Source: Streptobacillus moniliformis DSM 12112
GTDB lineage: Bacteria; Fusobacteriota; Fusobacteriia; Fusobacteriales; Leptotrichiaceae
Reading direction: 5' to 3'
NCBI RefSeq assembly: GCF_000024565.1
Contig: NC_013515.1
Span: 1,098,497 to 1,162,496, forward strand
DNA length: 64,000 bases
The notes beneath the pieces are model-generated. The model searched no databases. It was given only the letters and a program-made list of their open reading frames with translations, and had not been told where the DNA came from. This document shows, piece by piece, positions 5,568 through 14,270 of the stretch. Each line of letters starts with the position of its first letter. Positions within the stretch are counted from its first letter, which is position 1. The position numbers and the translations under genes are program-made.

Positions 5568-6791
5568 ATGTATAATTCTAATAAAATTAAATCTATCTTC
5601 TCCAAATATATTTTAACAAATTCTATTAATTCTATCAAGCCATATTTTGATAAAAAACATATTGAACATATCAACCATTCCATTCATAATTTTCTTAACT
5701 GTGGTAATCTCTCTAAAGGCTTTATCTCTTATCGTTGTTCCTCTTGTAATTTTCAACATAAAATGAAACTTACTTGTAAATCTAGACTTTGTCCATCTTG
5801 TGGTTATAACTATTCTGTTAATTGGACTAATTCTATCTTAAAACAATTTATTAACATCCCTCATAGGCATGTCCTTTTTACTGTCCCTAAAGAATTTAGA
5901 AAATTTATTGCTTATGATAGATCTATTCTTTCTAAAATGTCTAAAGCTATTAATGATATTTTTAAATATCAATTCCATAATATCAAAGATAAAGTTAAAA
6001 GAAAAATATATATCCCTAAATCTAATCCTAATTACTTTACTAATTCTGATATTATTAACTACGGACTTATTACTGTTATTCATACTTTTGGTAGAAACCT
6101 TAAGTTTAATCCTCATATTCATGCCATCATCTCTCTTGGAGGTTTTAATAAAAAATTTCAATATAAAGAACTTAAATACTTTCATGTCCCCTCTATTGCT
6201 AATCAATGGAAGTTTTCTCTTTGTAAATTAATTAGTAATGCTAATTATCCTAATGATATTATTAAAATACAAGCTAAAAAAGCTGTATCTAATGTTTATG
6301 ATAATGATGTTAGGTTATTTTTTAATGTAGCTGGTAATGATATTAATAATCCTAAATACATTATTAAATATCTTGGTAGATATTTATCAAGAGTTCCTAT
6401 TGCTGAATATAAGATTGTTAATATTGATTTTAATAAAAATTCTCTTACATTTAAATTTGAAGATTTAAGTAATAATAAAGAAGTTACTTATTCTACTTTA
6501 TCTTTTAAAGATTTTGTTGCTAAAGTGCTTTTTCATCTACCTTTAAAGTATTTTAAAATGATTAATAGATATGGTTTCTATGCTAGAAGAATTTCTTCTA
6601 AAGTTAAAATGTCTCTATTTTATCTTAAAGCTCAGGTTAATAAAAAGTCTCTTTCTTTATTTAGGAAAAACTTTAAAGAACTTTGGGACTTTGACCCTTT
6701 TATGTGTCCTCATTGTAATATTTATCTTAAACGTTATGAACTATTTATTGATAATGGTCTTTCTCCTCCTATTCATAAGTTCTATAATTAA
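5568..6791 (+). CDS. IS91 family (Y2, HUH) transposase
   Basis: 407 residues. The N-terminal zinc-binding domain holds CSSC, then CKSRLCPSC (about residues 57-82). This is followed by HRHVLFTVP and the HUH motif PHIHAII (histidines near residue 183), which coordinates the metal for strand nicking. RYGFYARR near residue 335 carries the candidate catalytic tyrosines. The C-terminal region ends with a second Cys pair, CPHC. The length and domain order match intact IS91/IS1294-type transposases. The coding strand is very T-rich, as is the 3' flank. AAAGGAG precedes the ATG. The ORF is uninterrupted, so the element may still be active. Confidence 0.85.
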   Translation: MYNSNKIKSIFSKYILTNSINSIKPYFDKKHIEHINHSIHNFLNCGNLSKGFISYRCSSCNFQHKMKLTCKSRLCPSCGYNYSVNWTNSILKQFINIPHRHVLFTVPKEFRKFIAYDRSILSKMSKAINDIFKYQFHNIKDKVKRKIYIPKSNPNYFTNSDIINYGLITVIHTFGRNLKFNPHIHAIISLGGFNKKFQYKELKYFHVPSIANQWKFSLCKLISNANYPNDIIKIQAKKAVSNVYDNDVRLFFNVAGNDINNPKYIIKYLGRYLSRVPIAEYKIVNIDFNKNSLTFKFEDLSNNKEVTYSTLSFKDFVAKVLFHLPLKYFKMINRYGFYARRISSKVKMSLFYLKAQVNKKSLSLFRKNFKELWDFDPFMCPHCNIYLKRYELFIDNGLSPPIHKFYN

Positions 6792-8145: not shown

Positions 8146-8221
8146 TGGTGAGTCATACTGGAATCGAACCAGTGACACCTTGATTAAAAGTCAAGTGCTC
8201 TACCGACTGAGCTAATGACTC
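8146..8221 (-). tRNA. tRNA-Lys (anticodon TTT)
   Basis: 76 nt with acceptor stem GAGTCAT/ATGACTC, D arm starting GCTCAGTCGGTAGAGC, anticodon loop CTTTTAA, T loop TTCGATT and an encoded CCA. Third in the cluster. Confidence 0.97.
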
Positions 8222-8224
8222 ACA

Positions 8225-8300
8225 TGGAGCGGGAGACGAGGGTCGAACTCGCGACATTCAGCTTGGAAGGCTGACACTCTACCAACTGAGTTACTCCCGC
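8225..8300 (-). tRNA. tRNA-Gly (anticodon TCC)
   Basis: 76 nt with acceptor stem GCGGGAG/CTCCCGC, anticodon loop CTTCCAA, T loop TTCGACC and an encoded CCA. It is 3 nt from tRNA-Lys. Confidence 0.97.
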
Positions 8301-8305
8301 ATACA

Positions 8306-8391
8306 TGGTGCCTCGGGCCGGACTCGAACCGGCACGGGATTACTCCCACAGGATTTTAAGTCCTGTGTGTCTACCATTTCACCACCAAGGC
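8306..8391 (-). tRNA. tRNA-Leu (anticodon TAA)
   Basis: 86 nt with acceptor stem GCCTTGG/CCGAGGC, anticodon loop CTTAAAA, the long variable arm typical of tRNA-Leu, and an encoded CCA. First in the cluster. Confidence 0.97.
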
Positions 8392-12072: not shown

Positions 12073-12264
12073 ATATCTAACCTCTTTATTGCAATTTAAG
12101 TCTGCATATTTTTAATTATACCACATCTTAGAAAAAATAAAAGTCTTGTTATCATCTTAATTTTATTTATATTTGTAAAATAAAATTGCTTTATTCAATA
12201 AAATAATGATATAATTAACAATAAAATACATGAGGATAATATTGTTATACTATATTAAAACACC

Positions 12265-12293
12265 TTGACAATTCTCTCTAAACATGGTAATAT
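12265..12293 (+). promoter_or_regulatory. Promoter of the leader RNA / Abi_2 unit
   Basis: TTGACA (12265-12270) and TAATAT (12288-12293) are exactly 17 bp apart. The expected transcription start is near 12300, 120 nt upstream of the protein start codon. Confidence 0.75.
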
Positions 12294-12299
12294 ATCTTA

Positions 12300-12404
12300 T
12301 CGATGTAGCAACCGTTTTTGAATTTTTTCAAATAAAGCTTAAGGTTGATGGTACTTAAGTAGTGGTTAGTAAAAAAGGTATGATATATTCATATCTTTTT
12401 TTTT
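12300..12404 (+). ncRNA. Structured leader RNA upstream of the Abi_2 gene (candidate abiF-type RNA)
   Basis: This ~105-nt transcript is delimited by a promoter and an intrinsic terminator. Visible structure: hairpin TTTGAA-TTTT-TTCAAA (12317-12332); hairpin CTTAAG/CTTAAG (12338-12343 with 12354-12359) whose loop holds GTTG; and CAAC (12309-12312) upstream, able to pair with that GTTG to give a pseudoknot-like fold. A terminator stem follows. Abi_2/AbiF genes are known to be preceded by conserved structured RNAs. In type III toxin-antitoxin loci the order is also promoter, RNA antitoxin, terminator, toxin. The match to the described abiF RNA has not been checked by covariance model. Confidence 0.6.
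12371..12404 (+). terminator. Intrinsic terminator between leader RNA and Abi_2 gene
   Basis: AAAAGGTATGA pairs with TCATATCTTTT (one G-U pair) across a TATAT loop, followed by nine T in total. No second promoter is evident between this and the gene, so the protein must be made from read-through transcripts. Confidence 0.75.
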
Positions 12405-12421
12405 GCGAAAGGAATTTTGAA

Positions 12422-13420
12422 ATGAAAAATATAAAATATGACAAAGAATTTAAAACTTTTGAAGAACAGATTTCATATTTAAAGAATACATACAATTTAA
12501 TAATCAAAAATGAAGATTTAGCTTTAGAGCTTTTAAAAATTTTCCCTTATTATAACCTTATAAACGGATATAAAGAATATTTTATGAAAAATGGCAAATA
12601 CAGTAATACATCACTTGAAGATCTAGTATCTATTCATTTATTAGATAAAAACTTTTTAACAATAATTTTTAAATACAGTACATATGTAGAAGATATATTT
12701 AAACATAAACTTGCATATGTCATTAGTAGTCAAAGTTACAATCATGTAGATAAAGACTTCTATTTAAAAGATTCTAAATTATTCAAAAAGAATTTTTCAT
12801 CTAATATAATAAAAACATTAGAAAAGATTTTAAGTAATCCTAATGTTGAAGATCCTACAAAACATTATCTAAAAGTGCATAATCATATTCCAACTTGGAT
12901 ATTTTTTAAAAATGTTAATTTTTATGAAGTTACAGAACTATTTAAAATATTTAATAGTGATTTGAAAACAGATGTAATTAAAATGTTCTACTTATTTTAC
13001 AAAACTAAGTTCAAATTTAATAGTCCTCCTAAAGATTATGAAAAAAAGGCAAAAAGAATAGAAATATTTGAAAAATCATTATTAACTGTAAGAAAATTCA
13101 GAAATTTAATAAGTCATAATCTAAAAGTTTTCACTTATACTTTAAATAAAGGAATATCTACATCATATTTTAACGATACTTTCATAAATAACTTTTTAAT
13201 TTACTCTGATAAAAAATATGAAGGAGATTTATATACATGTATTATATCTATAATTCTATTATTAGATGCTCCACTATCAACATTTTTTATTAAAGATCTA
13301 CAATTAATAATTAATGAACATAAATCACATTCAAATACATATTTTAAAATGTATAGACTACCTTCAAATTTCAATGAAATATTAGAAAAAATATATGATG
13401 AACTAAATCATATCAAGTAA
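12422..13420 (+). CDS. Abi_2 / AbiF-like HEPN abortive-infection protein
   Basis: 332 residues from the ATG at 12422 (ribosome-binding site AAAGGA; an in-frame start 60 nt upstream would lie inside the leader RNA). The N-terminal segment FPYYNLINGYKEYF matches the conserved Abi_2 block, followed by FLTIIFKYSTYVEDIFKHKL. The HEPN ribonuclease motif R-x4-H is RNLISH (Arg227, His232). Abi_2 proteins (AbiD/AbiF) stop phage growth, probably by RNA cleavage after release from an RNA partner. The gene stands alone on the plus strand among minus-strand genes, directly behind the leader RNA, suggesting a self-contained acquired defence module. The exact subfamily is inferred. Confidence 0.8.
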   Translation: MKNIKYDKEFKTFEEQISYLKNTYNLIIKNEDLALELLKIFPYYNLINGYKEYFMKNGKYSNTSLEDLVSIHLLDKNFLTIIFKYSTYVEDIFKHKLAYVISSQSYNHVDKDFYLKDSKLFKKNFSSNIIKTLEKILSNPNVEDPTKHYLKVHNHIPTWIFFKNVNFYEVTELFKIFNSDLKTDVIKMFYLFYKTKFKFNSPPKDYEKKAKRIEIFEKSLLTVRKFRNLISHNLKVFTYTLNKGISTSYFNDTFINNFLIYSDKKYEGDLYTCIISIILLLDAPLSTFFIKDLQLIINEHKSHSNTYFKMYRLPSNFNEILEKIYDELNHIK

Positions 13421-13428
13421 TAAAAAAT

Positions 13429-13460
13429 GCATCATCAAATCTATTAAAGATTTGAGATGC
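13429..13460. terminator. Bidirectional terminator between Abi_2 gene and queH
   Basis: GCATC-A-TCAAATCT pairs with AGATTTGAGATGC, with T-rich runs on both sides (six T on the minus strand). Confidence 0.75.
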
Positions 13461-13475
13461 TTTCTTACAAAATAT

Positions 13476-14270
13476 TTAATCTTTAAGCATTTGTTTTTTC
13501 AATGCAAATATACAACCACAATAACATTGTCTATACACATCATATTCATTACACATTTCTATACTTCTTTTATATCCATTATTTTTCTTAAAATCAGAAG
13601 GTAAGTATTTAACCTTATATATCTCTTGAACTTCAAAACCTAATTCATTTACTAATTTAGAATTTTTTTTAGGTGATAATGTTATAGCTGAACCAAAATA
13701 ATCAAATTTTAAATTTTTAGCATATCTTGCAACTATATCTAACCTCATTTGAAAACAAGTTACACATCTACTTCCACCTTCTGGTTCATTTTCCTGACCC
13801 TTTGTTAATTGTAAAAAATGTTTAGGATTATATTCATCTTCTATATATTTAACATTATTTCCTGTTTTTTCATTAAAATCTTTAATAAATTGTTGTTGCA
13901 CTTCACTTCTTTTAATATATTCTTGTTTAGGATGTATATTTGAATTTGCAAATAAGATAGTTATATCTGCATAATTACATAAAAATTCTAAAGTATATGT
14001 AGAACAAGGAGCACAACAACTATGTAATAAAATCTTAGGTTTCTTTTCAAGACTTTTCCATTTTTTTATTAATTTTTCAAGTATTGTATGATAATTTATT
14101 ACCTGATTTTTATTCATTGAAGATAAAATAGATAATGCATCATCAAATTCATTTTCAGTTATGAAAGTATTATCTTTAATAATATCAAAAATTTTATCAT
14201 TTTTACTTTGATTATCTTTCATATCCTTTTTTAATTTTTCATATATATCTCTTAGTTCCTTATTTTCCAT
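13476..14270 (-). CDS. queH: Epoxyqueuosine reductase QueH
   Basis: 264 residues. The core starts at LLHSCCAPCSTYTLEFL (about residue 82) and has GGSRCVTCFQMRL and the C-terminal QCYCGC, the cysteine set that binds iron-sulfur and metal in QueH. It catalyses the last step of queuosine synthesis in tRNA, replacing the unrelated QueG of aerobes. About 70 extra N-terminal residues, Lys/Asp-rich and helical, precede the usual start. Such extensions occur in some members. The gene is flanked by terminators and appears monocistronic. Confidence 0.9.
   Translation of the reverse strand: MENKELRDIYEKLKKDMKDNQSKNDKIFDIIKDNTFITENEFDDALSILSSMNKNQVINYHTILEKLIKKWKSLEKKPKILLHSCCAPCSTYTLEFLCNYADITILFANSNIHPKQEYIKRSEVQQQFIKDFNEKTGNNVKYIEDEYNPKHFLQLTKGQENEPEGGSRCVTCFQMRLDIVARYAKNLKFDYFGSAITLSPKKNSKLVNELGFEVQEIYKVKYLPSDFKKNNGYKRSIEMCNEYDVYRQCYCGCIFALKKQMLKD

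Follow-up and report, generated by a model that had tools for sequence, protein, structure and literature searches.

The window analysed here is a stretch of 64,000 nucleotides from the chromosome of Streptobacillus moniliformis, a member of the Leptotrichiaceae (Fusobacteriota), and positions given without a locus name refer to it. The genome of strain 9901T has 1,673,280 bases, with a chromosome of 1,662,578 bases (PMC3035246). The window includes a unit in which a promoter, a leader, an intrinsic terminator and a gene for an Abi_2 protein follow each other (Table 1), with genes on the minus strand on both sides. The promoter has its -35 box at 12265-12270 and its -10 box at 12288-12293, separated by 17 nt with TG at 12285-12286, and with 10 of 12 positions matching is the best plus-strand promoter-like site nearby in a promoter scan. 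The terminator hairpin (12371-12401) leads into nine T (12396-12404), and a change from GU to AU in the sister species discussed below retains a stem pair. A pattern scan with limits on stem, loop and tail reported no terminator at the locus, probably because those limits are ill-suited to an A-T-rich stem, whereas folding gives a stable hairpin. The gene runs from an ATG at 12422 to a stop ending at 13420, and the scan found no plus-strand promoter-like site between the terminator and this ATG. A longer protein starting at GTG 12362 was considered and rejected, as the sister species has no in-frame start codon upstream of the equivalent ATG. The first-pass annotation, made from the sequence alone, had described the consensus promoter, the terminator with nine T, the gene with its own ribosome-binding site and no second promoter, and the isolation of the unit on the plus strand among minus-strand genes, and all of these are borne out.

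Table 1. Features of the Abi_2 unit and its surroundings in the window
Feature	Position	Strand	Basis
Promoter TTGACA-17-TAATAT, extended -10	12265..12293	+	Sequence; sister-species conservation starts at -35 box
Putative antitoxin RNA, predicted as a leader ncRNA of about 105 nt	12300..12404	+	Between promoter and terminator; recurs in homologues; outside all Rfam families
Conserved RNA core, 69 nt	12302..12370	+	67/69 identical in sister species
Intrinsic terminator and T-run, between RNA and gene	12371..12404	+	Fold, -11.6 kcal/mol
Ribosome-binding site AAAGGA	12408..12413	+	Sequence; kept in sister species
Abi_2 / AbiD-F group HEPN protein, 332 aa	12422..13420	+	Pfam, PADLOC, profile and fold matches
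HEPN R-X4-H motif, R227-NLIS-H232	13100..13117	+	Alignment of 18 homologues
Hairpin GCATCATCAAATC/GATTTGAGATGC downstream of Abi_2 gene, probable terminator	13428..13466		Sequence only
Inserted cassette relative to empty site in congener G003	12077..13488		Flank alignment

The protein is an AbiD/F-group HEPN protein. It matches Pfam Abi_2 at 1.9e-28 (100.5 bits against a cut-off of 25.6) and PADLOC AbiD at 1.9e-30, and a profile built from nine homologues matches PDB entry 8VZ6, “PbAbiF dimer bound to ncRNA”, at E 1.8e-8. The same entry is the only significant PDB fold match to an AlphaFold model built from 14 sequences (pLDDT 84), with a Foldseek E of 1.8e-7 and TM scores of 0.62/0.68; the comparison with PbAbiF-AbiFr is by protein alone, and the proteins differ in that their identity is only 16%. 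No significant match to the model was found in the viral fold library. Single-sequence approaches gave little, as the structure prediction had a pLDDT of 38 and was useless, and a search of genome and viral collections with the one sequence found no close protein relatives. R227 and H232 are invariant across the 18 aligned homologues, in keeping with the earlier recognition of an Abi_2/AbiF HEPN protein with the motif RNLISH, and their counterparts R202 and H207 are required for the toxicity of AbiF of Clostridioides difficile (PMC12373285).

The leader was compared with that of the sister unit in congener G001, where similarity to the window locus starts at the -35 box. The two proteins are 69% identical and the coding DNA 78% identical, with identity at 20 of 35 comparable fourfold-degenerate sites, while the RNA core is 97% identical and no 69-nt stretch of the coding sequence does better than 62/69. 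This strong conservation is thus good evidence that the core is a functional RNA, without establishing its structure. In the predicted fold an AACC/GGUU closing stem (12310-12313 with 12364-12367) surrounds hairpins at 12317-12332 and 12337-12360. The whole leader folds better than shuffled sequences (z -3.29), but this is due to the terminator, as the core without it folds no better than shuffles (z -0.45). The two hairpins of the roughly 105-nt leader that had been proposed at the outset are indeed predicted and are unchanged in the sister species, but show no covariation in the two window-type RNAs known. The possible pseudoknot between CAAC (from 12309) and GTTG (to 12347) is unsupported: its end pair is lost in the sister species, where GTTG has become GTTT, and AACC could equally pair with the GGUU of 12364-12367, which it does in the minimum-energy fold.

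Leaders were also aligned for covariation, as had been suggested. Nine sister RNAs aligned with MAFFT share a 4-bp stem in which 87.5% of cells are paired, but this was equalled by 73 of 500 shuffles, so that no common covariance structure is claimed for the whole clade. Four of the five differences between the sister RNAs of loci L067 and L069 form two compensatory pairs, one in an RNA hairpin and one in the terminator stem, so that structure is maintained at least in that pair of the clade. Two matches elsewhere were set aside: the single exact match to an 18-mer of the RNA core in viral contigs (L078) is in an unrelated context and consistent with chance, and an RNA-like match in congener G002 (L076) is also attributed to chance.

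The arrangement extends well beyond S. moniliformis. A hairpin-plus-T terminator lies within 70 nt before the start in 36 of the 41 Abi_2 genes collected, whose sources were Fusobacteriota and related contigs of prophages and Firmicutes, as against 9 of 91 control genes (Fisher 1.3e-18). The set includes some near-duplicate homologues, and removal of six of them leaves the figure at 5e-16. Control genes were drawn from the window and the fetched loci, the original 93 with 11 terminators being reduced by the two Abi genes among them. In most of the 18 clade members examined there is also a promoter close to consensus some 80-130 nt ahead of the start, and the order promoter, RNA, terminator, ribosome-binding site, gene is found by sequence in most homologues. 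From the terminators and promoters taken together the RNA-terminator arrangement is, as judged by these comparisons, a property of the Abi_2 family.

The RNA itself does not belong to the family described for abiF. The Rfam abiF model RF03085 had been put forward as a check on the leader, and it gave no match at E<=5 over 1.6 kb of the window or at E<=10 over 176 nt, nor any in 18 homologue loci. The negative result is informative since this tool does recover RF03085 ahead of the abiF gene of phage phiC2, at 37.6 and 19.5 bits. A search of 98 genomes of the phylum also gave no match (0/98), but with stricter filters under which no control genome matched, so that it carries little weight alone. 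There are no direct repeats in 12200-12430.

The unit seems, from alignment of its flanks, to have arrived as a mobile cassette. The flanks align with congener G003 at 86% and 90%, the homology stopping at 12076 and resuming at 13489, and the two flanking genes are only about 30 bp apart in G003, which lacks the cassette; the unit thus came as an insert of some 1.4 kb. G002 carries other sequence, of about 0.3 kb (8311-8630 of contig 401), at this junction between an oxidoreductase and a queH-like gene, and the junction may be an insertion hot spot. Elsewhere, parts of the upstream gene are duplicated across the Abi_2 unit, a YbaK-like gene in Oceanivirga locus L061 (+1088 to +1300 from the Abi_2 start) and a HicA-like gene on both sides in L064, and look as if a cassette had inserted with duplication. 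The window also carries at 5568-6791 a 407-aa open reading frame that resembles an IS91-type transposase with zinc-finger cysteines, as judged from the translation only.

Most sister loci are in prophage-like regions, and the window copy is in the chromosome outside any recognised prophage. The sister unit of G001 is preceded by genes for an XRE repressor and an ImmA/IrrE-type protein and adjoins another Abi_2 unit and, at a tRNA cluster, a tyrosine integrase; these neighbours, identified from their translations, place it at a prophage end. The two G001 units (L088, contig 5, 1970-4550) are a tandem pair of different Abi_2 units, each with its own leader RNA and terminator, beside the integrase and a cluster of three tRNA genes; a cluster of three tRNA genes is also present in the window (8149-8391), at a distance of 4 kb from the Abi_2 unit there. 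The corresponding place in G002, flanked by an ImmA/IrrE-type gene and an integrase, holds a broken remnant of an Abi_2 unit, and G003 has a degraded Abi_2 copy with seven stops. Right behind the G002 remnant and before the integrase there is an Rfam DUF3800-I RNA (L010:1734-1854, contig 156, 79 bits), another RNA element in the same prophage slot, for which no adjacent DUF3800 gene was recognised.

In 11 sister loci (L088, L005, L006, L007, L038, L064, L067, L068, L069, L070 and L073) the RNA promoter directly follows a same-strand gene of about 120-140 codons. The encoded protein is similar to FlgT_C (PF16538), at 2.6e-6 and above the cut-off in one member, with weaker or absent matches in the others tested. 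In 98 fusobacterial genomes the family is present at seven places, five of them directly upstream of an Abi_2 unit of the clade, one joined, in truncated form, to an Abi_2 remnant, and one elsewhere. There is no such gene beside the window unit or anywhere in the window genome, and the intact Leptotrichia and Oceanivirga members likewise lack it, so that the FlgT_C-like gene is accessory. It is a possible third component of the prophage-borne units; in the papers we searched, nothing links FlgT with abortive infection. One could go further and suppose that these loci form a distinct HEPN-RNA branch with its own RNAs unrelated to the abiF motif, in which the prophage form usually has three parts, the FlgT_C-like protein sensing infection or tuning the complex, and the window unit, with two parts, has left a prophage. 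We offer this tentatively, and think it more likely wrong than right.

Of the known systems, the one on which our interpretation draws is AbiF/RCd22 of the phi027 and phiC2 prophages of C. difficile, where transcription yields mainly the RNA, and this RNA binds the protein and relieves its toxicity in trans (Saunier et al. 2025, PMC12373285). The window unit, as predicted from its sequence, resembles it in having an Abi_2 protein with R-X4-H, a single promoter, an RNA of about 100 nt ending at a terminator, and a gene reached by read-through. The differences are that RCd22 has two RF03085 motifs and lies in a phage lysis module, while the RNA of the window unit lacks both an RF03085 match and repeats, is predicted to fold differently and is chromosomal. 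PbAbiF-AbiFr, the complex of 8VZ6, is the work of Zilberzwige-Tal et al. 2025, as cited in PMC12669027 and described in PMC12737573. The ToxIN, CptIN and TenpIN systems share the order of RNA, terminator and toxin gene and the proposed logic, but their toxins have the ToxN-type fold and not HEPN, and their antitoxins are tandem repeats; the window unit has neither feature. The first-pass comparison to a type III toxin-antitoxin unit is thus apt for the gene order, as in AbiF/RCd22, but not for the antitoxin repeats.

From the layout of the DNA, the family, fold and catalytic motif of the protein, the conservation of the RNA and the insertion, all of them observed, the window unit is probably a complete AbiF-type, type III-like unit of RNA antitoxin and HEPN toxin. 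For this we count the family hits, the match to 8VZ6, the invariant motif, the 36 terminators at 41 loci, the conserved RNA, the compensatory changes between L067 and L069, the prophage relatives and the empty site; against it we count the lack of an RF03085 match and of repeats, the core fold at the level of shuffles, and the translational control by which the leader of AbiD1 has been explained. By analogy with AbiF/RCd22, the ribonuclease would be neutralised by the RNA. The single promoter would give mostly a short RNA stopping at the terminator, with occasional read-through into the Abi_2 mRNA, and the RNA would bind the HEPN dimer and block its RNase centre (R227/H232). Phage infection would then stop the supply of RNA or otherwise disturb the RNA-protein complex, and the freed protein would cut RNA and so abort the infection. 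It is by homology that we infer the read-through ratio, the RNA-protein binding, the toxicity, the trigger and the phage defence, for which last the insertion and the prophage-borne relatives are only suggestive as context.

The main rival, which we regard as unlikely, is that the leader and terminator only limit expression, by attenuation or by a masking of the ribosome-binding site that is relieved by a phage protein, the RNA being no antitoxin. It draws on AbiD1 of Lactococcus lactis (PMC2661086), a protein of the same AbiD/F group whose gene is preceded by a 50-nt terminated leader transcript and an RBS-masking stem. There the regulation was ascribed to translation, raised by a phage factor, and no RNA antitoxin was shown, but that work was done before AbiF leaders were known to act as RNA antitoxins. 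In the window folding predicts a weak helix over AAAGG, worth only about 1.4 kcal/mol. Against this rival, the core has no obvious anti-terminator and no obvious reach to the ribosome-binding site, and mere attenuation would give no reason for a 69-nt core to be so highly conserved.

We think it less probable still that the unit is a decayed or silent relic with an intact gene, an orphan outside its prophage that no longer works. The FlgT_C-like gene found beside most sister units is missing here and genome-wide, and the copies in G002 and G003 are respectively broken and degraded, but other intact members also lack that gene, and the window unit retains a full open reading frame, catalytic motif, promoter, terminator and ribosome-binding site. 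Chance juxtaposition of the Abi_2 gene with an unrelated small RNA, or with the terminator of an upstream gene, might be entertained in an AT-rich genome where about 10% of other genes are preceded by a hairpin plus T. However, the upstream gene is transcribed away from the unit, a promoter on the plus strand immediately precedes the leader, and the recurrence of the arrangement across genera already contradicts a chance origin, which we consider barely credible.

With regard to the interpretation as an RNA-neutralised HEPN toxin, the principle is already published (Saunier et al. 2025; Zilberzwige-Tal et al. 2025, via PMC12737573 and PMC12669027). As far as these papers show, three things are new: the group of hosts, the RNA, which falls outside the known family, and the FlgT_C-like neighbour linked to prophages. 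The RNA-antitoxin principle of AbiF would thus extend to Fusobacteriota, with an RNA that is missed by current models, which suggests that many Abi_2 genes have cognate RNAs that have gone unrecognised, and that between branches the RNA changes much more rapidly than the protein does. This diversity of RNAs is useful for the question of how a Cas13 guide could arise from an antitoxin RNA, and the FlgT_C-like neighbour of the prophage-borne relatives provides a concrete and testable candidate for a third component.
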